Below, in pieces: positions 15,601 to 59,891 of a DNA stretch of 64,000 bases. The stretch covers positions 44,504 through 108,503 of the forward strand of contig NZ_KB900617.1 of NCBI RefSeq assembly GCF_000379025.1. Reading direction: 5' to 3'. This stretch comes from Orenia marismortui DSM 5156 (GTDB taxonomy: Bacteria > Bacillota > Halanaerobiia > Halobacteroidales > Halobacteroidaceae). The notes beneath the pieces were generated by a model, which saw only the letters and a program-made list of their open reading frames with translations, ran no database searches and was not told the origin of the DNA. A program made the position numbers and the translations under genes. Each line of letters starts with the position of its first letter. Positions within the stretch are counted from its first letter, which is position 1.

Positions 15601-15868
15601 AAAATAAAAAAACTCCTCCCTGAAAGGGACGAGATTATAATCGCGGTACCACCCTAATTAGTATAATTTTAGCTGCTAGCTACTGGCTAATAATATACTC
15701 ACTCAAACAGAATAACGGTCTGCTCCGATTCCTTCTACTATTTTAATTTCAAAGGAATAGCTAAGAGACGATCTTCAATAAAGCTTCTGTTCCTAGGCTT
15801 ACACCATCCCTAGTTCGCTATAACTTCTACTTCATCTACTCTTCTCTATGATTGCTATTTAATCATAT
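15601..15868 (-). promoter_or_regulatory. T-box riboswitch, isoleucine (ATC specifier)
   Basis: The minus strand carries the T-box core GGGTGGTACCGCG (15642-15655), then a terminator stem CTCGTCCC/GGGAGGAG with a run of T (15601-15633). Upstream is a stem I with GATGGTGTAAGCC and a candidate specifier in TTGAAGATCGTC, reading ATC for isoleucine (15770-15772), which fits ileS. Uncharged tRNA-Ile would stabilise the antiterminator. The T-box to ileS distance of about 350 bases is unusually long, and the region between stem I and the antiterminator contains the repeat TAGCCAGTAGCTAGCAGCTA. Confidence 0.93.
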
Positions 15869-46103: not shown

Positions 46104-46170
46104 TATAATTTTGGAAACGTTCTAAAGTATCAAAACATCTTATAAAACTTTTTTGGGAACGTTCCCAAAA
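46104..46170 (-). promoter_or_regulatory. scrA promoter with two ScrR operators
   Basis: Operator 1 is the perfect 20-base palindrome TTTTGGGAACGTTCCCAAAA (46151-46170). Operator 2 is the weaker TTGGAAACGTTCTAA (46111-46125) and falls inside the spacer of a promoter with TTGATA (46128-46133) and ATTATA (46104-46109). The centre spacing is about 42 bases, four helical turns, suitable for loop or cooperative binding. The rest of 45903-46201 shows no gene. Confidence 0.8.
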
Positions 46171-47233: not shown

Positions 47234-47294
47234 TTTTGGGAACGTTCCCAAAACTTCTTATAAATATTATACAATATATTAATTTATAGGTCAA
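47234..47294 (-). promoter_or_regulatory. scrR promoter and operator
   Basis: Minus-strand TTGACC (47289-47294), 17-base spacer, TATAAT (47266-47271). The 20-base palindrome TTTTGGGAACGTTCCCAAAA (47234-47253) follows directly after the predicted start, identical to the operator before scrA. Confidence 0.85.
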
Positions 47295-47311: not shown

Positions 47312-48256
47312 TTATTTCAATATCTTTTCAACTTCCTCTAAAGTAGGTAGTGCTGACATAGCTCCCTTTTGAGAAGCTGCTAATGCTCCTGAAATGCTAG
47401 CAAATTTAGAAGTATAGTTTAAAAAGCCATTGTCAAATTCTTCTATACTCTTCTCAGTCTTATTTAAATTATATAAAATACCTGATACAAAAGCATCTCC
47501 TGCTCCTGTAGTATCTACTGTTTCTACCTTCATAGTTTCTACAAATTCTAATTGATCTTTATAATAATAATAAGATCCTTTGCTACCAAAAGTCACATAG
47601 ATTAAAGGAATATCATACTCTGCTTTTAATATCTCAACTCCAGACTCTACATTATCTTCTCCAGTAATGAATTCTAATTCTTCATCAGAAATTTTAAGAA
47701 TATCTGCCTCAGATAGCATAGAGATAATACCTTCTTTTGCTACAGCTTCATTAGACCAAAGATTCAATCTCAAATTGGGATCATAAGAGATTAACATTCC
47801 ATTCTCTTGTGCTTTTTTGACAGCATACTTAGTCGCAGTTCTAGCAGGTTCATGAATTAAAGAGATAGAACCAAAATGTAGAATCTTATTCTCTTTAAAG
47901 ATATCCTCATTTATATCTTCTTTGCTTAAAAAAGTATCAGCACTAGGATCAATATAAAAACTAAAGCTACGCTCTCCACTTTCATCTAAAGTAACAAACA
48001 CTAACCCTGTTCTAGCTTCATCAGTTAAAACCATCGATTCTGTATTAACACCTTTTTCTTCTAAGGTTTCTTTTAAAAAGATACCTAATACATCATCACC
48101 TACTTTACCTACAAAACTAGATTTTGCTCCTAATCTACTAAGACCTACTGCTACGTTAGCAGGAGCCCCCCCTGGGTTCTTCTTAAAATTGATATTCTCC
48201 TCATCTAAAGGTATAAAGTCAATTAACGCCTCTCCTAAAGTTATGATGCCTTTCAT
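47312..48256 (-). CDS. scrK: Fructokinase, PfkB family
   Basis: A 314-residue sugar kinase that phosphorylates the fructose released by ScrB. The N-terminal substrate motif GGAPANVAVGLSRLGAKSSFVGKVGDD and the C-terminal catalytic motif VDTTGAGDAFVSG are intact. The start is ATG at 48256 (MKGIITLGEAL) after AAGAGGTGTATTTA. It lies just upstream of scrR and downstream of the sugar ABC operon, with its own perfect promoter. It may therefore serve sucrose, and also any fructose brought by the ABC importer. Confidence 0.92.
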   Translation of the reverse strand: MKGIITLGEALIDFIPLDEENINFKKNPGGAPANVAVGLSRLGAKSSFVGKVGDDVLGIFLKETLEEKGVNTESMVLTDEARTGLVFVTLDESGERSFSFYIDPSADTFLSKEDINEDIFKENKILHFGSISLIHEPARTATKYAVKKAQENGMLISYDPNLRLNLWSNEAVAKEGIISMLSEADILKISDEELEFITGEDNVESGVEILKAEYDIPLIYVTFGSKGSYYYYKDQLEFVETMKVETVDTTGAGDAFVSGILYNLNKTEKSIEEFDNGFLNYTSKFASISGALAASQKGAMSALPTLEEVEKILK

Positions 48257-48405
48257 TAAATACACCTCTTTTTCTATTATTTTTATATTCTATCCACCTA
48301 TTAGTAGTGGTATTCAATAAATCCAATGATATGTAAGCAATAACAAGTGACAAGTTGAAAATATTAAAATTCCCATAATAAAAAACCCTATCTGTTTTGG
48401 GAATA

Positions 48406-48702: not shown

Positions 48703-49698
48703 TTATTTTCTTTTTACAACTCCAGATCTAACAAATACAGCACCTACTATAACTGCTCCCTTTACTACTAATTGCAAATATGGAGAGACATTCATTAAAT
48801 TCAAACCATTATTGATCATACCAATAATAAAGGCACCAATTAATGTACCAATGATTGTACCTCTACCTCCCATAATACTAGTACCTCCAACTACTGTAGC
48901 AGCAATAGCATCTAATTCCCAGCCTTCTCCTGCTAATGGTTGACCAGATCCTAAACGGGCAGCTAAAATCAAACCAGCAAGAGCAGACATGAAACCTGTA
49001 ATCATATAAATTTTCATTTTAATTGCTTTAACACTAATTCCTGAAAGTCTAACTGTCTCCTCATTATCGCCAAGAGCACATACATGACGCCCAAATCTAG
49101 TTTTATTTAATATAATACTAGCTACAACTAAAACAGCAATCATAATCCAAACTGGGACTGGAATCCCTCCTAGATAGCCTCTACCTATAAACTTAAATCC
49201 AGCTGACAATCCAGCAATTGGACTACCTCCAGTATATAATAAAGCAGCACCTCTAGCCATAGACATCGTACCTAAGGTTACAATAATTGGTGGTATCTTA
49301 GTATTAGAAATTACTAGTCCATTAAAAATACCAAAAGATGTTCCTAAAGCTAAACCTAAAATAGTTGCTAAGATGGGTGACATTCCAGTATTAACAATAA
49401 ATCCTGCAATTAATGTACCTGTAAAAGCTACAATAGAGCCAACTGATAGATCAATTCCACCAGTCAAAATTACGAAAGTCATACCAGTAGCAATAATAGC
49501 ATTAAGAGAAACTTGGCGTGCTAAATTGATCATATTTCTAGAAGTAAAAAAATAAGGACTAGCTATAGATAAGGCAATAGATAATAAAACTAGACCAATT
49601 ACTGCATAAATCTCTGGTTTATAATAACTATTGTTAATTTTTTTCAAGAAAACATTCTTCTTACCTGAAGTTAATTTCTGGCTCAAATTCAAATCCAT
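48703..49698 (-). CDS. Ribose-type sugar ABC permease
   Basis: A 331-residue RbsC-like inner-membrane subunit with about ten helices. GMTFVILTGGIDLSVGSIVAFTG, TKIPPIIVTLGTMSMARGAALLYTGG, ALGDNEETVRLSGISVKAIKM and ATVVGGTSIMGGRGTIIGTLIGAFI are signature stretches of the carbohydrate uptake transporter-2 family. Start ATG at 49698; its ribosome binding site GGGGAGGTAAG lies in the last codons of the ATPase gene, whose stop is one base upstream. Confidence 0.93.
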   Translation of the reverse strand: MDLNLSQKLTSGKKNVFLKKINNSYYKPEIYAVIGLVLLSIALSIASPYFFTSRNMINLARQVSLNAIIATGMTFVILTGGIDLSVGSIVAFTGTLIAGFIVNTGMSPILATILGLALGTSFGIFNGLVISNTKIPPIIVTLGTMSMARGAALLYTGGSPIAGLSAGFKFIGRGYLGGIPVPVWIMIAVLVVASIILNKTRFGRHVCALGDNEETVRLSGISVKAIKMKIYMITGFMSALAGLILAARLGSGQPLAGEGWELDAIAATVVGGTSIMGGRGTIIGTLIGAFIIGMINNGLNLMNVSPYLQLVVKGAVIVGAVFVRSGVVKRK

Positions 49699-49699
49699 A

Positions 49700-51190
49700 T
49701 TAACTTACCTCCCCTGCAGCACTCTTCATAATTTTTTCTTGATTTAAATCCTTATTCTCATAAATACTACTAATTCTACCCTTATGCATTACTAAGACTC
49801 TATCACTCATTCCAATAATCTCTGGAAGCTCAGAAGAGATCATAATAATTGATTTACCTTGCTCAGTTAATCTATTCATTAATTCATAAATTTCATACTT
49901 AGCCCCAACATCAATCCCTCTCGTTGGTTCATCAAAGATTAGTATATTTGAATCAGTAAACATCCACTTAGCTAATACAACTTTTTGCTGATTGCCACCA
50001 CTTAAATTTCTAGCTAACATCTCTTGAGAAGGAGTTTTAACCCCTAAATCATCAATATATCTTTGCACTTCTTCTCTTTCTTTTCCATTATCAATCAGTA
50101 ACTTTTTAGTAACCTTATCTATTTTAGCCAACGTTATATTGTTTTTGATTGATTGGCCTAAAACAACCCCCTGCTGTTTTCTATCCTCTGGTAATAAACC
50201 AATTCCATGCTCAATACTATCCTTAGGTGATTCAACATTAATTAATTGATCATTAAGATAAACTTCTCCAGTATCCTTAGGGTCAGCACCATACAAAGCT
50301 CTAACTAATTCTGTTCTACCAGCCCCTACTAAACCAGCAATTCCTAAAATTTCACCTTTGTGTAAAGAGAAATTAATATTATTTAAAACCCCTTCACTAG
50401 AAAGATTTCTAATCTTTAATACTACTTCACCGGTCGTTACTGTCCGTTCAGGATAACTATTAGTCAAATCTCTTCCAACCATCCAACGGATGATTTGATC
50501 TTTATCAATATTATCTACATCATCAGTAGCTACATGTTCCCCATCGCGCAAAACACTTACTCTATCTCCTATCTCAATTAATTCATCTAGATGATGAGAA
50601 ATGTATATAATAGACACTCCTTTATTTTTGAGATCACAAATCACAGCAAATAAACGTGCTAGTTCTTTAGGTGTTAAGGTTGCTGAAGGTTCATCCATTA
50701 CAATCAATTTTGCTCCAAAAGATAATGCTTTAGCAATTTCAACAAATTGTTGTTCAGCTACACTCAAGCTATTGACCATAGCTCTAGGGCTAACCTCTAC
50801 TCCTAACTTATCCAATATTTTTTGGGTATCTTCATACATCTTGTCTTTATCAATCATTCCTAATTTATTAAGCGGCTCTCTACCCATAAATATGTTTTCA
50901 GCTACAGTTAATACCGAAGCTAAATTAAACTCTTGGTAGATAATACTAATCCCTTCTTTTTGTACCTGCAAGGTACTACTAGTATCTAATTTTTTCCCAT
51001 TAAAGAATATCTCCCCTGAATCTCTTTGATAAGCTCCTGAGAGAATCTTCATCAAGGTAGATTTCCCCGCTCCATTCTCTCCAATCAAACAATGTACTTC
51101 TCCTTTATGGATTTGAAGACTAACATCTTTTAATGCTTGAACACCAAAGAAAGACTTATTTATATTCTTCATTTCTAAAATGTTATTCAT
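49700..51190 (-). CDS. Ribose-type sugar ABC ATPase, two cassettes
   Basis: A 496-residue RbsA-like protein with two ABC cassettes. Cassette 1 has Walker A GENGAGKST (about residues 36-44), MDEPSATLTP and YISHHLDEL; cassette 2 has the degenerate P-loop GLVGAGRTELVRALYG normal for this family, LSGGNQQKVVLAKWM and FDEPTRGIDVGAKYEIY. It powers uptake of a monosaccharide. Start ATG at 51190 after AGAGGGGTGCCTATTT. The first cassette is the obvious template for the degenerate domain of the histidine kinase encoded upstream (53778-55670). Confidence 0.94.
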   Translation of the reverse strand: MNNILEMKNINKSFFGVQALKDVSLQIHKGEVHCLIGENGAGKSTLMKILSGAYQRDSGEIFFNGKKLDTSSTLQVQKEGISIIYQEFNLASVLTVAENIFMGREPLNKLGMIDKDKMYEDTQKILDKLGVEVSPRAMVNSLSVAEQQFVEIAKALSFGAKLIVMDEPSATLTPKELARLFAVICDLKNKGVSIIYISHHLDELIEIGDRVSVLRDGEHVATDDVDNIDKDQIIRWMVGRDLTNSYPERTVTTGEVVLKIRNLSSEGVLNNINFSLHKGEILGIAGLVGAGRTELVRALYGADPKDTGEVYLNDQLINVESPKDSIEHGIGLLPEDRKQQGVVLGQSIKNNITLAKIDKVTKKLLIDNGKEREEVQRYIDDLGVKTPSQEMLARNLSGGNQQKVVLAKWMFTDSNILIFDEPTRGIDVGAKYEIYELMNRLTEQGKSIIMISSELPEIIGMSDRVLVMHKGRISSIYENKDLNQEKIMKSAAGEVS

Positions 51191-51277: not shown

Positions 51278-52249
51278 TTACCAGCTGAAATCAGCAGCAT
51301 TCTCATGGGTGATTAATTTTACTGGTACAGGTAATTCATCAGGAACTTCCTTACCATCTAGTAACATCAATCCGTACTCAATACCTAATTTTCCAATTTT
51401 TGCAGGCTCTTGAGCAGCAGTTGCAGCCATACCCATTCCAGTTTCATTATTAGCAATTACTTCAACTGCATTTGGAGCACCATCTACACCCATCACAAAG
51501 AACTCATCTGCACGACCAGCTGATTGAGCAGCAGCTACTACACCCAAAGCACTTGGATCATTTATAGCAAATACAGCATCAATTTGTGGGTGAGCTTGTA
51601 AGATATTTTCCATAACCTCCATTGATTTAGCCTTTGTACCATCACCATTCTGCTCAGCAACAACCTTAATATCTGGATATTTTTTTATAGTTTCCATAAA
51701 TCCATTATATCTATTTCTAACAGCAGAAACCGGGTTACCATTGATAACAACAACTTTTCCTTTTCCATTTAAGCGTTCATTAACATACTCTGCATTAATT
51801 ACACCCGCTTTGTAATTATTAGATGCAATAAATATATCACGATCACCTATAGAGTCACCATCAACACATACAACTGGAATTCCAACTTCCTTAGCAGCAG
51901 CAACAATACTTTCAGATGCTTCATAATCAACAGGATTTAATAATAGCAATTCAATACCTTGGACTATCATATCTTCAACATCAGCCAACTGTTTTGCAGC
52001 ATCATGTTGACCATTTGAAACAAGAAGAGTACCATTTAAATTGTCTTCTACCTCTTTTTTAACGGAATTCTCCATAGCTTTAAAAAATGGGTTATCAGTA
52101 GTCATAAATGTAATTCCAACTTTAATTCCTTCATGAGCATTAGTAGTTGTTACAGTTTCATTTTCTACTTTTTTACCACCACATGCTGACAAAGCCAATA
52201 CCATAGTTACTAATAATACTACAGCCATAATCTTTTTGATTTTAAACAC
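51278..52249 (-). CDS. Ribose-type sugar-binding lipoprotein
   Basis: A 323-residue periplasmic-binding protein (Peripla_BP_4) with a lipoprotein signal (VLALSACGGKK). KVGITFMTTDNPFFKAMENSVKKEVE, LLLLNPVDYEASESIVAAAKEVGIPVVCVDGDS and DAVFAINDPSALGVVAAAQSAG resemble RbsB and FrcB-type proteins. The specific sugar cannot be read from sequence; proximity to scrK makes fructose an option besides ribose. The start is GTG at 52249 after GGGGTGGATTTAA. It is the first gene of the importer operon and has a leader of over 700 bases. Confidence 0.9.
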   Translation of the reverse strand: MFKIKKIMAVVLLVTMVLALSACGGKKVENETVTTTNAHEGIKVGITFMTTDNPFFKAMENSVKKEVEDNLNGTLLVSNGQHDAAKQLADVEDMIVQGIELLLLNPVDYEASESIVAAAKEVGIPVVCVDGDSIGDRDIFIASNNYKAGVINAEYVNERLNGKGKVVVINGNPVSAVRNRYNGFMETIKKYPDIKVVAEQNGDGTKAKSMEVMENILQAHPQIDAVFAINDPSALGVVAAAQSAGRADEFFVMGVDGAPNAVEVIANNETGMGMAATAAQEPAKIGKLGIEYGLMLLDGKEVPDELPVPVKLITHENAADFSW

Positions 52250-52319
52250 TTAAATCCACCCCTTTTTCTTCTTTTAATTTACTAAACTAATTATTATACT
52301 AGCTAAAAAGATAAATCTA

Positions 52320-52497
52320 TATAATAAGAATCCTTATAAAATAATTAAGCTTATTGATTCTAATTAATCTGACTAATACTATAAGATAATTTCTTATCTC
52401 CCCCTTTCAGCTTGATTTATTTAAATGGGGCATAAAGCCCCATATATAATAAGAGCCCTTATAAAATTATTAAACTTATTGGCCCTAATTAACTATA
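52320..52497. repeat. Pair of about 50-bp direct repeats in sugar-operon leader
   Basis: TATAATAAGAATCCTTATAA at 52320 and TATAATAAGAGCCCTTATAA at 52445 begin two similar stretches of about 50 bases (through ...CTAATTAA). The copies are about 125 bases apart and differ at roughly a fifth of positions. Both lie in the non-coding leader between the terminator at 52789 and the binding protein gene. Confidence 0.6.
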
Positions 52498-52565
52498 ATC
52501 ATTTTATAATAATACAGCCCATACACAGCAAAAAAATTGATATTTATTCTGCTATATCTGGGCTG
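52425..52565 (-). other. Two further stable hairpins in sugar-operon leader
   Basis: Hairpin ATGGGGC/GCCCCAT with a five-base loop lies at 52425-52443. A larger stem CAGCCCA/TGGGCTG with an inner AGCA/TGCT helix lies at 52515-52565. Neither has a strong T-run on the minus strand, so they may be structural parts of the leader rather than terminators. Confidence 0.55.
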
Positions 52566-52788
52566 TTATAGTAATAGCTTATTATAAGAGTTATACCCAA
52601 AATATTAAATTTTCACTTGGCCTAAATACCTCTTCATAGATCATAAAAAATTATCTTCATTATTATTTATCTTTCTCAACTAAAGTTATCTAAGCATATA
52701 TGATTATTTGTGATTGTTTGTAATTATAATTCCTTATATAATCATTTATAATTCTCAGATTATAAACTCCACCTTATTAAAAATACTC

Positions 52789-52858
52789 AAAGAAAAAATA
52801 GGTGCCCCATATATGCATGCATAACTAAAAATATAGCATGTTCATATACGGAGCACCC
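52789..52858 (-). terminator. Leader terminator before sugar ABC operon
   Basis: Minus-strand arms GGTGCTCC...CATGC and GCATG...GGGGCACC (52801-52857) form a long stem followed by TATTTTTTCTTT. It lies between the promoter at 52992-53020 and the first transporter gene, so transcription must pass it; this suggests an antitermination switch. Confidence 0.8.
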
Positions 52859-52868
52859 ATAACCCCTG

Positions 52869-52959
52869 TAATCTATACCAACCATAAGTATAGATTAATC
52901 TATTTATTTTTTATTATTCTCATTTAGAGTAATTTTTTTGTACCAACCATAAGTACAAA
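52869..52959 (-). promoter_or_regulatory. Twin hairpins with identical loops, candidate ANTAR target
   Basis: On the minus strand, hairpin 1 (52937-52959) is TTTGTAC, loop TTATGGTTG, GTACAAA. Hairpin 2 (52869-52897) is TAATCTATAC, the same loop TTATGGTTG, GTATAGATTA. The stems differ, with compensating bases in both arms, while the nine-base loop is identical. Known ANTAR targets are two successive stem-loops with six-base loops having A at position 1 and G at position 4; AUGGUU inside this loop fits, though it would be closed by a U-G pair with one bulged U. A terminator follows 10 bases later. Confidence 0.7.
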
Positions 52960-52991: not shown

Positions 52992-53020
52992 ATTATATAT
53001 CCAATTTAACAAATAATCAA
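52992..53020 (-). promoter_or_regulatory. Promoter of sugar ABC operon leader
   Basis: Minus-strand TTGATT (53015-53020), 17-base spacer, TATAAT (52992-52997). The predicted start near 52985 is about 25 bases before hairpin 1. No further signal was seen in 53021-53163. Confidence 0.7.
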
Positions 53021-53163: not shown

Positions 53164-53748
53164 TTAGCCTAAAATCTGATTTGCTTTAATTATTTCTTTC
53201 GCTATAACTATCATTTTCTTATTATTATTTCTACTCATTTTCTGTAATTCTTTCATCGCTTCTGCTTCTTTTAAATTCTTTCTATCCATCAAAATACCCT
53301 TTGCCCTTTCTATATATTTACGGTTCTTTAAAGAGGTTTTTGTATCCTTTAATTCATCTTCTAAGTCCTTAATTTCATTATATCTAGATATAGCAACTTT
53401 TATAGCTGCATTTAGGTCTTTAGCATCAACAGGTTTAACTAAATAGCCAAAAACACTTTCGACACTGGCTTTTTCTATTAGCTCTTGATCATGATAGCCA
53501 CTAACTATTATACTCGGAATAAGTCTTATGCTATTTATCCTCTTAATTGCCTCAATTCCATCTAAAGAAGGCATATTAATATCAATAATTATCAAATCTG
53601 GTTCTAGATCTAATGCTAACTTTACTGCTTCTTTACCATCGCTTGCTTCACCAATAATTTCATATCCCAATTTTTTTAAATTAGCCTTAAGCCCCATCAA
53701 ACACAAATATTCATCTTCAGCTATTAATATCTTCAATGGCTTATCCAT
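53164..53748 (-). CDS. ANTAR-domain response regulator
   Basis: A 194-residue two-component regulator with a receiver domain (residues 5-120; acidic pocket EDE, phospho-acceptor Asp56 in IIIDINMP, Lys105 in LVKPVDA), a coiled linker and a C-terminal ANTAR domain (about 135-190; YIERAKGILMDRKNLKEAEAMKELQKMS). ANTAR regulators such as EutV, AmiR and NasR bind twin hairpins in nascent RNA and block terminators. Start ATG at 53748 after AGGAGGAGATTTT, 29 bases after the kinase gene. The candidate RNA target lies 200 bases downstream, in the leader of the sugar transporter. Confidence 0.94.
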   Translation of the reverse strand: MDKPLKILIAEDEYLCLMGLKANLKKLGYEIIGEASDGKEAVKLALDLEPDLIIIDINMPSLDGIEAIKRINSIRLIPSIIVSGYHDQELIEKASVESVFGYLVKPVDAKDLNAAIKVAISRYNEIKDLEDELKDTKTSLKNRKYIERAKGILMDRKNLKEAEAMKELQKMSRNNNKKMIVIAKEIIKANQILG

Positions 53749-53777
53749 AAAATCTCCTCCTAATAACTAATGTCACT

Positions 53778-55670
53778 TTAACTACCTAATGAAATACTTT
53801 CTATTGGCAGCTTTATTCTTACCTCAGTACCTTCTTTTAAGTTAGAAAAATTCACTCTACCATTAAATTCATTACTAATAATAGAATGAACAATAGATAA
53901 CCCTAAACTCTCCGTATTCTCTAACTTAAAATCTCCATCTAATCCAACTCCATTATCTTTAATAACCAACAGAACAACATCCTCAAGACGCTTACATCTA
54001 ATTTTAATCTTTGCAACTGATTTATCAGTAAAAGCATGTTTTAAACAGTTGCTTACTAATTCATTGACTATTAAAGCAATCGATGATGCCTTATTATAAG
54101 CAATAAATATATCTTCTAAATCTAATTTAACTTTAACCTTTTGATCCAAGTTAACAAATCTAACAATAATTTTTATTAAAGTTTTAAGATTAGTAATACT
54201 TCTACCAAATTTATCTTTAGATAGAATATCATGTACCACAGCTATACTTTTAATTCTTAAAATAATATTATCTAGAATATCATCAACAGATTTTTTAGAG
54301 TTTTCAGCAATAAAGTTCTTTTGTAAAGATACTAAATTTACTATTGCTTGCAAGTTATTTTTAATTCGATGGTGACTTTCTTGTAATAGTGCAGACCTTC
54401 CCATCAGTCTAGTATCCTCAATAGCCAATGCAGCTTGCCGAGCAAAGGTTGATAAATATTTAGATTCATCCTCAGAATGCAAATAAAAGTCTTCATAAAA
54501 AATTTGGATAATTCCTGATACATGTGATCTAATTAACAACGGAATACATATAATTGTCTTTACTTTATTATTTTTTTTAAATAAAGAATCAAAATCCTTT
54601 TCTCGAGCATTGGAATAATAAATATTATCTTCTTTTGAAATATTTAAGATTGACTTTCTGGTTAAACTGGCCTCTAAATATTTTTTTCTCTTAAACTCAA
54701 AGTTATCTATTAATGCATTAGTGCTTTCATCAATCAAATTAATAATACAACCATCAGCATTCATAACCTTACTTACTTCTTTAGCTAATAATATTAATAC
54801 ATCTCTTAATTCATATTCAGAAGTTAAGAATTCAGTTGCTTTAAAAACAGCATCTAAAATTTCTCGTTCATCACTACAACTAGATTGAATCTCTCTGTAA
54901 TTATAATCTACTAGCAAACTAAATAATTTCTTTGGACATTTTTTAGCCTCATCCGCAGCTAAAGTTCCTTTAAATTGACCATTAGCGATAATAGAGATTC
55001 GATCAGAAACTCTTAAAGCTTCTTCCCATCTTTGGGTGATATAAATAATACTACCTCCATCTTTTTTATAACTACTTATCAATCCATAGATTTTAGAAGT
55101 AGATTTAGCACTTAATTTATCTGTAGCTTCATTCATAATAATCACTTCAGGTTTATTTAAAAACACCTTAACAATTGCTACTAACTTCTTCTCTTCTGTA
55201 GATAAGTTATCGACTTTTTCTTTATAATCCAAATCAAAATTATACTGTTCTAAAATCTCTTTAGCTAAATTATTAACTTTCTTCCAATTAATAAAATTAA
55301 AATATTTTTTAGTTGGGTATTCTAATCCAAAAAGATTTTCTGCTACAGAAAAAGAGCTTACAAGAGGAGATTTCTTTAATAGAAAATCTATTTCAGATAA
55401 TTTATGATCCACAACTCTATCTATTAATTCAGATTTAAATTCTAAACTTCCTATTAGCTTCTTTAAAGAGGACTGTCCAAAACTAGCTGATAAGGAATCT
55501 CCTTTAAGATAAGTAGCTATTGACTTAATAAACAACTCACTTGCTGAACTATTCTCTATAACTAGACCATGAACCTCACCTGAATATAGATCTAAATTTA
55601 TATTACTAATACTATGCCCCTCAAAATCACTACAATATAAATTGTTAATCTTAAAAATAGCTTGATCCAT
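53778..55670 (-). CDS. Degenerate ABC ATPase-GAF-HisKA_2 sensor kinase
   Basis: A 630-residue cytosolic protein. Residues 1-255 align along their length with the first cassette of RbsA-type sugar ATPases (SGEVHGLVIEN, FSVAENLFG, VDNLSTEEKKLVAIVKVFL, VIIMNEATDKLS, YITQRWEEALRVSDRISIIANG). The working residues are gone: Walker A Lys-Ser-Thr is replaced at 44-46, LSGGQ reads LSTEE (156-160), the Walker B Asp is Asn180 and the switch His is Gln213. A GAF domain (about 270-420), a HisKA_2 box ESHHRIKNNLQ (431-441) and HATPase motifs (N536, DNGVGL 572-577) follow. It precedes the ANTAR regulator and sugar importer. Start ATG at 55670. Confidence 0.93.
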   Translation of the reverse strand: MDQAIFKINNLYCSDFEGHSISNINLDLYSGEVHGLVIENSSASELFIKSIATYLKGDSLSASFGQSSLKKLIGSLEFKSELIDRVVDHKLSEIDFLLKKSPLVSSFSVAENLFGLEYPTKKYFNFINWKKVNNLAKEILEQYNFDLDYKEKVDNLSTEEKKLVAIVKVFLNKPEVIIMNEATDKLSAKSTSKIYGLISSYKKDGGSIIYITQRWEEALRVSDRISIIANGQFKGTLAADEAKKCPKKLFSLLVDYNYREIQSSCSDEREILDAVFKATEFLTSEYELRDVLILLAKEVSKVMNADGCIINLIDESTNALIDNFEFKRKKYLEASLTRKSILNISKEDNIYYSNAREKDFDSLFKKNNKVKTIICIPLLIRSHVSGIIQIFYEDFYLHSEDESKYLSTFARQAALAIEDTRLMGRSALLQESHHRIKNNLQAIVNLVSLQKNFIAENSKKSVDDILDNIILRIKSIAVVHDILSKDKFGRSITNLKTLIKIIVRFVNLDQKVKVKLDLEDIFIAYNKASSIALIVNELVSNCLKHAFTDKSVAKIKIRCKRLEDVVLLVIKDNGVGLDGDFKLENTESLGLSIVHSIISNEFNGRVNFSNLKEGTEVRIKLPIESISLGS

Positions 55671-57099: not shown

Positions 57100-58206
57100 C
57101 TAATTAAGAGTTTTAACTTTATTCTTCCATAATTTAAATAACTGATCTTCATTTAAGTTGCCTTCTAAATAGTTTCTAAACTTTGAAGAGAAAAAATTAT
57201 ATAATAAATAATCATTACTTTTATTTATCTTTACAGCATTCAATAATTGTTTTGCCACTATATCTCCTTGTCCAGTTAACTCTTCTAAAAACTCATCATT
57301 AGGCATAATAGTACCATTATATTTATAAAACTTTCTTGCTACCTCCTCTGAAGATAAATATTTCATAACATCTCTAATTACCGGATTATCATTTAACATA
57401 GCCCATTGCTGTCCTCCCATTGGAGAAAAATGACCTTCTTTTCCCTTAGGTAACAAGGCTATTTTAAAATCTTGATTGGATTTATCTAAAGATGATAAAA
57501 CCCAAGGTCCATTAATCATCATAGCTACCTTTTCTTCAATAAACATCTTTACCATCTGGTCATAAAAGTTATTGTTATCTACTTTAGGTAAAGAGTTATC
57601 TTTATAAAGCCTTTTAAATCTCTTAGCTACATTTATGAAAGAATTATAGTCTACATCCTCTGTAAGGAAATTTTTATCTTCACTTCCAAAAAAGACACTC
57701 ATCCACCATCCTGAATATAATGAGATATAAGAACCATATTGCACTATTTTATCAGATGAAAAATCTTCTTCACCTAAACTTCTTCCAGATTCATCTATAG
57801 TATATTCTCTTGTATAACTAATAAAATCATCAAGAGTAAGTGGTGGCATCTTAATAATATTTGGATTATAAAAAAGTAATAAACAATCAACTGATTGTGG
57901 AATTACAGTATCAGCTACTATATATTTTTTAAACCATTCAGGAGTCTTAATATCAATTCTTGCTATATCAATCTTTTTACCTGACTCTAAAAATTCTTGG
58001 ATTCTTGTGAAATGATTAGAAAATGGTATATTCAAAAGATTAAACTCAACAAAATGAAATCTTTCATATTCTTTTAATATTTTCTGTAATCCTTTAGCTT
58101 CTTCTTCAGTCATTTGTACAGCCATATTCACTTCTTTTCTTGGCATATATATATACCCTAAAACTAAAATTAAAACAAGTCCCAAAATTAAAATCTTTAG
58201 TTTCAA
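57100..58206 (-). CDS. Membrane-anchored solute-binding protein (sensor partner?)
   Basis: A 368-residue extracellular-solute-binding protein of the maltose type (SBP_bac_1). The N-terminal segment (LKILILGLVLILVLGYIYM) has no lipobox Cys and probably acts as an anchor or signal. SVDCLLLFYNPNIIKMPPLT, EEKVAMMINGPWVL, FSPMGGQQWAMLNDNP and KYNGTIMPNDEFL match family landmarks. No permease or ATPase is encoded nearby; its start overlaps the HD-GYP stop by four bases (ATGA), so the two are co-translated. I infer a sensory rather than transport role. Confidence 0.82.
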   Translation of the reverse strand: MKLKILILGLVLILVLGYIYMPRKEVNMAVQMTEEEAKGLQKILKEYERFHFVEFNLLNIPFSNHFTRIQEFLESGKKIDIARIDIKTPEWFKKYIVADTVIPQSVDCLLLFYNPNIIKMPPLTLDDFISYTREYTIDESGRSLGEEDFSSDKIVQYGSYISLYSGWWMSVFFGSEDKNFLTEDVDYNSFINVAKRFKRLYKDNSLPKVDNNNFYDQMVKMFIEEKVAMMINGPWVLSSLDKSNQDFKIALLPKGKEGHFSPMGGQQWAMLNDNPVIRDVMKYLSSEEVARKFYKYNGTIMPNDEFLEELTGQGDIVAKQLLNAVKINKSNDYLLYNFFSSKFRNYLEGNLNEDQLFKLWKNKVKTLN

Positions 58207-59891
58207 GCAATTCCCTCCTCTTCCCCTTTGTAGATATTTATTATATTTTCTTTATTCTCGATAAAAATATCAACTAACTGCGGATCAAATTGTTTACCTT
58301 TTTCTTGAGTTATAATATTAAAAGCCTGTTCAAAAGTAAAAGCCTTTTTATAAGGTCGTTCAGATTTAAGAGCATCAAAAACATCACAAATAGCTACTAT
58401 TCTACTTTCATAAGGAATATCATTCCCCTCTAAACCTAGAGGATATCCTGTACCATCCCATTTTTCATGATGAGTTAGAGCTATACTAGATGCCATTTCG
58501 AAAAGAGGATGTTCTATTTTAGATATAATATTATATCCTGCTTGACAATGCTCTTTCATTTGAGCAAACTCTTCTTTAGTTAATTTTCCAGGTTTTAAAA
58601 GAATACTATCTGGTATTGCTATCTTTCCTAAATCATGTAGTTTAGCAGCATTCTCTAGCATAATCAATTCTTCCTGATCATCAATGATAGCATCACCTAA
58701 TATTCTAGCTACTTTACTGACCCGATTAATATGAGCACCTGTAACATCATCACGATATTCTGACATTTCCCCTAACAATAATAATATTTTATAAATCATT
58801 TTCTTATTCTGTTCTAGATAATCTTCTTTCTCTTTATTAACTTTAACTATATCTTCAGCCAAATTATTCAACAACTCTTTAGTATTCTCTTCTAAACCTT
58901 CCGTTTCTTCTTGGACTAATGAATAAAAGGAATCTTTGGTGATTTTATCTGCTATTAAATTCTCAATCATCCCTAAAACTTTCCACAACGATTTATTAGT
59001 AACTTTAATTATCTGGTTATTCTTCTTTAATTTAGTAGCATAATCATAGTTACTCTGAAACAGTCCTTCTAAAGTATCACCAATCTTATCAATCTCTTTA
59101 ATTCCAATACAGGGAAGTTTACTATCATGATTAATCCCTTTAACTGCTCTCTTACCAATACTATATGCCATTTCAGAAAAACGACTAATTCTTCGAGAAA
59201 AAACTCTACTAAAACCCTCAGTTAAATAAAGTGAAATTAACACTGTTACACTTAACAATAAAATTATTTTAAATAAAACTCTCTTTATTAAACTTAATAA
59301 ATTCAATTCCAAATCTATAATTAAATAAAAAGGATAAGTAACATAAGGATTATCATTCATTCCAATAAAATAATAGTCTAAACCATCTCTTTTCACTCTA
59401 CTTCTATCATAGAAATCCAAATCAACAAATTGATTTGTACTAGTAAAAACAGGTTCATATAAAAGAGAAAATAATCCGTAGGGAGCTTTCAAATTGAGAA
59501 TATCTCCTGTTTTTTTGGCTAATTTATGTATGTTAATCTTATATAAAGCTATTTTATCCCCCTGACTTTTATAAATATAAAGAGTATCTTTCTTGATTTT
59601 TGAATATCTATCCATACCACCAACTTCTTTTATCCGACCCTTTATATTAAGAAGATCATCAGGGTAAACTGGCTTAGTATTTTTAATCTTATTATCTATT
59701 TCCCTTTCTAAATATTCAAAATATAAAGAAGACAAAGAATCATACAAATTAATCCTTTCTTTTAAGTTCTGATTCAACTCATAATATATACTAAATGGAA
59801 TAAGAAGCAAGGACATAATCAATAATGCCAGCAATATATTTTGGGTCAAAATTGACTTGAAACTTTTACTAGAAATATTTCTCACCCCCAC
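58203..59891 (-). CDS. Membrane HD-GYP domain phosphodiesterase
   Basis: A 562-residue protein with an N-terminal membrane segment (about residues 15-32), an extracytoplasmic domain of about 170 residues, a second membrane helix (about 205-225), a HAMP-like linker and a C-terminal HD-GYP domain. Catalytic residues are intact: AKLHDLGKIAIPDSILLKPG and THHEKWDGTGYPLGLEG. HD-GYP enzymes degrade cyclic di-GMP to GMP. Start ATG at 59891 is reached without a strong ribosome binding site. The stop overlaps the start of the solute-binding protein gene, suggesting ligand-controlled signalling. Confidence 0.9.
   Translation of the reverse strand: MGVRNISSKSFKSILTQNILLALLIMSLLLIPFSIYYELNQNLKERINLYDSLSSLYFEYLEREIDNKIKNTKPVYPDDLLNIKGRIKEVGGMDRYSKIKKDTLYIYKSQGDKIALYKINIHKLAKKTGDILNLKAPYGLFSLLYEPVFTSTNQFVDLDFYDRSRVKRDGLDYYFIGMNDNPYVTYPFYLIIDLELNLLSLIKRVLFKIILLLSVTVLISLYLTEGFSRVFSRRISRFSEMAYSIGKRAVKGINHDSKLPCIGIKEIDKIGDTLEGLFQSNYDYATKLKKNNQIIKVTNKSLWKVLGMIENLIADKITKDSFYSLVQEETEGLEENTKELLNNLAEDIVKVNKEKEDYLEQNKKMIYKILLLLGEMSEYRDDVTGAHINRVSKVARILGDAIIDDQEELIMLENAAKLHDLGKIAIPDSILLKPGKLTKEEFAQMKEHCQAGYNIISKIEHPLFEMASSIALTHHEKWDGTGYPLGLEGNDIPYESRIVAICDVFDALKSERPYKKAFTFEQAFNIITQEKGKQFDPQLVDIFIENKENIINIYKGEEEGIA

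Follow-up and report, generated by a model that had tools for sequence, protein, structure and literature searches.

Gene order and kinase architecture

The window, by which we mean the whole 64,000-nucleotide stretch of the Orenia marismortui DSM 5156 genome that was analysed, carries on its minus strand, in this order, genes for a sensor kinase and a REC-ANTAR response regulator spaced by 29 bp, a leader of 914 nt, and genes for the RbsB, RbsA and RbsC components of an importer and a PfkB-type sugar kinase. The coding features, with the sources of each assignment, are as follows.

53778..55670, minus: sensor kinase, 630 aa, no membrane segment expected (ORF, Pfam)
54906..55670, minus: RbsA-first-half-like pseudo-ATPase domain, kinase residues 1-255 (Pfam, NCBIfam, tree, AlphaFold2, Foldseek, VIA-align)
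54417..54809, minus: GAF domain, residues 288-418 (Pfam GAF/GAF_3)
54192..54380, minus: HisKA_2 dimerisation/phosphoacceptor domain, residues 431-493, with HHRIKNN at 433 (Pfam)
53799..54086, minus: HATPase_c kinase domain, residues 529-624, N and G boxes present (Pfam)
53164..53748, minus: REC-ANTAR response regulator (Pfam Response_reg + ANTAR (62.7 bits))
51278..52249, minus: RbsB-type substrate-binding lipoprotein (Pfam, NCBIfam)
49700..51190, minus: RbsA-type double ATPase, intact (Pfam, NCBIfam, motifs)
48703..49698, minus: RbsC-type permease (Pfam, NCBIfam)
47312..48265, minus: PfkB-family (fructokinase-like) sugar kinase, possibly downstream in the operon (Pfam, NCBIfam)

The succession described in the initial annotation, with GAF and HisKA_2/HATPase domains after an ABC-like part, an ANTAR gene next and an RbsABC-type importer downstream, is borne out by ORFs, Pfam and NCBIfam alike. 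The regulator at 53164-53748 (minus strand) is the single ANTAR gene of the genome, and the phosphoacceptor and the N and G boxes of the kinase are intact. The kinase looks soluble, as its hydropathy profile contains one marginal 19-residue window (KD 1.78), located within the GAF domain, against 47 such windows in RbsC.

Pfam recovers a single ABC_tran match in the kinase (residues 22-183, 31 bits, cut-off 25), followed by GAF-HisKA_2; the two fused NBDs of RbsA are absent. The best NCBIfam models for this N-terminal part are AlsA (93 bits), RbsA (85) and MglA (84). The initial annotation had named a structure prediction lacking an ABC fold in residues 1-255 as grounds for abandoning its reading; the AlphaFold2 model of residues 1-275 (pLDDT 82.5, pTM 0.82) instead has a predicted ABC fold (Foldseek E 3e-17; VIA-align Z 24.6 over 234 residues, rmsd 3.0), and the reading therefore stands on this point. 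Sequence searches at E cut-offs of 0.001 and 1e-30 returned no solved RbsA- or RbsC-type structures.

Family loci and the leader RNA

Full-length relatives of the kinase were found in 13 of the 59 genomes of the window's class (its own included), in 4 more genomes of a phylum sample of 398, and in two further genomes from one other class, one of which (G457) is cut by a contig end; the family is spread over four or more of the phylum's classes. These relatives were taken from a wider genome search and not from the genome-contig search with the single window protein, which returned unrelated ABC or kinase pieces only. Of 18 further loci, 17 repeat the layout of kinase, ANTAR gene, leader and importer; in intact loci the ANTAR gene directly follows the kinase and is itself followed by the leader and the RbsABC-type importer genes. 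The G017 locus is split between two contigs, the ANTAR tail being common to both and the second one carrying the leader, RbsB and RbsA; L026 stops at a contig edge, with RbsC upstream. Every intact fusion with enough sequence around it thus has an ANTAR regulator and a sugar importer beside it; neighbourhoods lacking the two, which the initial annotation had named as refuting its reading, were not seen among them. The pairing of HisKA_2 kinases with ANTAR regulators that it had cited as known holds here and throughout the intact family loci. Conversely, 14 of the 17 ANTAR genes of the class (one being counted twice across a contig break) adjoin such a kinase, and the remaining three, read by eye, look eut-type, being EutV with EutP/EutW-like or EutA-like neighbours. 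Other neighbours vary, and include pentulose-type kinases, dehydrogenases, a transketolase, glycyl-radical enzymes and a URO-D protein, from which the importer substrates are taken to differ among the loci.

Some loci have peculiarities of their own. In L033 and L041 the kinase-ANTAR module precedes genes for a glycyl-radical enzyme and its activase with RbsC-type permeases, and the G016 kinase (L033:6066-7919) contains a single in-frame TAG. G030 carries a decayed third kinase copy with two stops (L043:5684-6988). Two same-genus relatives have a methyl-accepting chemotaxis protein gene between rbsC and the PfkB kinase gene (L030:3655-5145, L031:13115-14758), which suggests that the binding protein of the importer may also serve taxis; no such gene is present at this position in the window.

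The initial annotation did not include the attenuator (52791-52959) and the promoter-like site (52992-53020) that we identified in the leader:

52992..53020, minus: promoter-like site (TTGATT-17-TATAAT) located 32 nt upstream of the first hairpin, assigned by consensus match only and with p 0.11 against shuffles
52937..52959, minus: extra upstream ANTAR-type hairpin TTTGTACT-TATGGTT-GGTACAAA
52869..52897, minus: recruitment hairpin (P1) of the dual motif, TAATCTATACT-TATGGTT-GGTATAGATTA
52850..52866, minus: antiterminator hairpin (P2) GGGGT-TATGGGT-GCTCC, overlapping the 5' arm of the terminator
52791..52858, minus: intrinsic terminator GGGTGCTCCGTATATG...CATATATGGGGCACC-TATTTTTT

The hairpins carry near-identical loops, and 2 nt separate the full stems of the close pair at 52869-52897 and 52850-52866. 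A dual hairpin of this kind is present in 16 of the 17 family leaders, against 0.02 expected from dinucleotide shuffles, a margin that is large even though the criteria were set after the sequences had been seen; the exception, L045, has the second hairpin alone. The paired positions covary strongly across the leaders, 89.9% of the cells being paired and 32 compensatory, versus 10 +/- 3.4 in shuffled controls; pairing drops to 37-52% when the structures are slid. A covariance model finds one strong match in the window genome (48 bits over a background of about 19.5), the next match (24 bits) being the extra hairpin of the same leader; a genome that carries two intact modules gives two strong matches, and two genomes that lack the kinase give none. 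No Rfam family was detected in the leader.

These leaders resemble those of the EutW/EutV system, in which a HisKA_2 kinase and a REC-ANTAR protein act with two hairpins joined by a short linker, the second lying inside a terminator (PMC3369931, PMC8934654). The linkers between trimmed stems measure 6-14 nt in the present leaders versus 5-12 nt in eut. Predicted folds place P1 and the terminator side by side in nearly every leader with the pair, with P2 inside the 5' arm, which corresponds to the off state described for eut, where P1 stands beside the terminator and P2 is sequestered in it (PMC8934654). Unlike the published ANTAR RNA loop, a hexaloop with A1/G4 (PMC3369931), the loops here are not strictly of this form but comprise 6-8 nt, mostly 7, with A-N-G-R (A-N-G-G or A-N-G-A), and some leaders have a third hairpin. 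In 14 of the 17 leaders a promoter-like site matching the consensus at 9 or more of 12 positions ends 17-45 nt ahead of the first hairpin; a perfect TTGACA-17-TATAAT accounts for three of these 14, and several score no higher than shuffled sequence, the DNA being AT-rich. Taken with the hairpins, these sites indicate that transcription of the importer operon probably begins at a start of its own and is gated by attenuation. The earlier claim that the system controls its own importer operon thus gains a concrete basis in a leader with ANTAR-type hairpins and a terminator ahead of rbsBAC, and by analogy with EutW/EutV the output is very probably ANTAR antitermination of this operon.

Two further structures lie between the terminator and rbsB. 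One is a repeated hairpin, found in the window at 52315-52365 and 52440-52490 (minus strand) and also in L030 and L031, with stems AGAATC/GATTCT, AGGGCC/GGCTCT and AGAGTC/GACTCT whose changes are compensatory between copies, a conserved AT-rich loop and a TTATTATA tail; its exact core occurs only twice in the genome. The other is a long hairpin without a T tract (window about 52530-52600, minus strand), again shared with L030 (AATAGCCCATTTATATCAAAATC...) and L031, in which, read by eye, the sequence varies and the pairing is kept.

Decay, conservation and ancestry of the ABC-like domain

The window kinase has lost Walker A (IENSSASEL), the Q-loop Gln, the Walker B Asp (MNEAT) and the switch His (TQRW), all of which are needed for hydrolysis. 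The initial annotation, which called the domain a dead ATPase, was right as to Walker A, Walker B and the switch His, but its appeal to the missing LSGGQ has to be dropped as uninformative because, where the kinase reads LSTEEKK, the first half of the RbsA of the same operon reads LSVAEQQ and likewise departs from the motif. Counts over 15 non-redundant family members further reveal that the decay is graded. The P-loop Lys of Walker A is kept in 12; the Walker B Asp is kept in only 3 and lost in 12 (His occupies the position in 8), and the switch His is lost in 14 and kept in one. L044 retains Walker A, the Q-loop Gln, the Walker B Asp-Glu and the switch His, while the window lineage and L026, the furthest decayed, have lost the P-loop; judged by these motifs, it is only to the latter two that the description "dead" fully applies. 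This pattern suggests that ATP hydrolysis is unlikely in most members and that ATP binding is possible in many, and it offers a natural series on how an ATPase becomes a sensor.

Other positions are strongly maintained. The catalytic Glu (E181 in the window kinase) is invariant in all 15 members, 12 have a family-specific Trp in place of the usual Leu of the switch region, and in the SVAEN motif that follows the Q-loop the E and the N are each kept in 14. Measured against the internal conservation of RbsA, Walker A (0.53) and the Q-loop (0.38) have fallen furthest, and the post-Q-loop segment (0.78), the helical part (0.92) and the C-terminal segment all lie within 0.78-0.98.

The retention of the P-loop Lys and the catalytic Glu makes nucleotide sensing possible in the family and lends some weight to what is the main rival to docking on the importer, namely that what the kinase detects, by way of the GAF domain and/or the ABC-like domain, is a ligand in the cytoplasm (sugar, sugar phosphate or nucleotide), and that the ABC-like domain makes no contact with the importer. 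The ABC-like domain would then be a dimerisation or nucleotide-binding module. The GAF domain is itself conserved and on paper an equally good sensor. Nonetheless, loss of the P-loop in the window lineage and L026 means that nucleotide sensing cannot be general, and sensing of this type leaves unexplained why the RbsABC-type neighbour is constant when the other genes and the substrates change. Overall, we regard it as unlikely, though the most serious of the alternatives.

The tree joins the ABC domains of the kinases to RbsA first halves (100/100) and not to second halves, and a kinase profile matches RbsA first halves at about 200 bits. These domains do not nest with their own RbsA, and a recent fusion with the cognate RbsA was rejected on this ground. 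The fusion has persisted across classes, at 31-50% identity and with some positions invariant; it is old, and possibly of one origin. It is in this light that the proposal that a chance fusion left the ABC-like part behind as a relic without function has to be judged: the catalytic motifs do decay in one lineage, but the age of the fusion, its persistence across classes at this identity, its invariant positions, the family-specific Trp and the whole domain seen in both the tree and the AlphaFold2 model render it highly improbable.

The homology to RbsA first halves, along with the conserved signature-helix and post-Q segments, could be invoked for a third alternative, in which the ABC-like domain pairs with RbsA (e.g. 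its second half) or competes with RbsA for the permease, so that the main effect of the kinase would be to throttle transport, with its displacement giving rise to signalling. A precedent exists in BceS, which throttles the BceAB ATPase (PMC10314905). However, the window protein no longer has the nucleotide site that closing of an NBD sandwich requires, and we consider this alternative distinctly improbable.

The trees of the kinase ABC domain, the kinase core and the ANTAR protein agree (Mantel 0.63-0.88, p 0.0005), with kinase and ANTAR co-inherited (rho 0.63, p 0.0005). Kinase distances are uncorrelated with those of the RbsC permease (rho 0.10, p 0.28) and show no correlation at depth with those of RbsA (0.28, p 0.09). 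The lack of correlation with the permease, which counts in favour of cytoplasmic ligand sensing, implies that no specific co-evolution or interface is seen and that importers were exchanged. Shallow clades are congruent for all genes, as illustrated by the G030 copy L037, which joins f3-family copies on kinase, ANTAR, RbsA and RbsC. Together, the shallow congruence and the deep non-correlation suggest that modules move whole and that over longer times the importer is swapped for another of the same type.

A proposed circuit and its relation to known systems

We propose, with a probability of roughly 0.55, that the locus encodes a self-contained circuit whose output is ANTAR antitermination and whose input is docking of the pseudo-ATPase on the importer. 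By sequence, the antiterminator hairpins of the leader exclude the terminator ahead of rbsBAC. Carrying over the EutW/EutV scheme, the kinase would phosphorylate the ANTAR protein, which would then dimerise, grip the leader hairpins and block the terminator so that rbsBAC is transcribed. On the input side, HisKA_2 kinases are generally dimers, and two pseudo-NBDs would therefore match the dimeric permease; the kinase dimer might present them to the RbsC dimer in place of RbsA or beside it. The part after the Q-loop faces the permease in ABC importers, and this conserved segment would be the docking contact; the conservation of the post-Q-loop and helical segments amid a decayed nucleotide site is compatible with docking. 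A ligand-loaded or cycling importer may then activate the kinase, with a GAF ligand perhaps acting as a gate, and would thereby report its own use. The initial annotation had likewise suggested docking on the permease or RbsA, with transport state as the signal and no separate sugar receptor. The RbsA-type origin, the conserved permease-facing part and the dimer match make docking a reasonable proposal, to which we give about even odds, bearing in mind that the importer has its own RbsB and that the kinase retains its GAF domain.

More generally, these kinases may constitute a class of sensors in which a retired transporter motor serves as receptor, the pseudo-NBD of a soluble kinase docking on importers of one family, the kinase reading the transport state and antitermination providing the output; we put this at slightly below an even chance. 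Were it true, a single sensor design could serve importers that differ in substrate and would need no sugar-specific receptor. If the domain does read the importer, it would also provide a case, direct and open to testing, in which a primary importer reports on its own use, and would explain why one design is joined to importers with different substrates.

The system is of the EutW/EutV type, with an input domain for which we found no precedent: here an RbsA-derived pseudo-ATPase and a GAF domain form the input and a CUT2-type importer is the target. The ABC-like domain is homologous to the first NBD of RbsA/MglA/AraG (CUT2), by best profile matches and tree placement, but is a single domain within a kinase, with the Walker B Asp and switch His mostly replaced and the P-loop lost in the window lineage. 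Degenerate importer ATPases are thus a new kind of input domain for ANTAR two-component systems, and CUT2-type importers are brought under such systems, forming a defined module that has an RNA switch of its own. The initial annotation knew of no characterised system of this layout, and the literature searched, with most subscription journals outside the search, likewise held none, nor any description of ABC-HisKA_2 fusions or of the kinase-ANTAR-importer module.

Partial parallels are known. The Bce modules (BceAB with BceS) also link a two-component system to a transporter, the proposal being that the system signals the cycling of the transporter and increases its synthesis (PMC10314905). 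BceS, unlike the soluble kinase described here, is a membrane kinase without a fused NBD that contacts the permease through membrane helices. BceR, the target of BceS, is a DNA-binding regulator, whereas the partner here is of the RNA-binding type. The SLC5-kinase transceptors CbrA and CrbS are sensor kinases built on a transporter part (PMC7096432, PMC5715377). In them a whole secondary transporter is fused, whereas the present kinase, in which Pfam detects no SLC5 symporter domain, has only the soluble degenerate ATPase of a primary importer. In XylFII-LytS, sugar ABC importer genes are under a neighbouring two-component system. The same is true of CuaD (PMC10384115). Both sense via an extra binding protein outside the cell, in contrast to the soluble kinase with an NBD-like input. 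Finally, actinobacterial ANTAR RNAs occur near sugar transporters and are mostly thought to act on translation (PMC8164766).

Elsewhere in the window, a perfect palindrome, TTTTGGGAACGTTCCCAAAA, occurs at 46151-46170 and 47234-47253, flanking a LacI-family gene beside sucrose PTS and ScrB genes; judging from this placement, the two copies are likely operators of the LacI-family protein. At 57100-59891 (minus strand) a gene for a solute-binding-like protein overlaps one for an HD (HD-GYP-like) domain protein, and the two products are possibly a binding-protein-linked signalling pair. A T-box leader (126.5 bits) is located at 15622-15861 on the minus strand.
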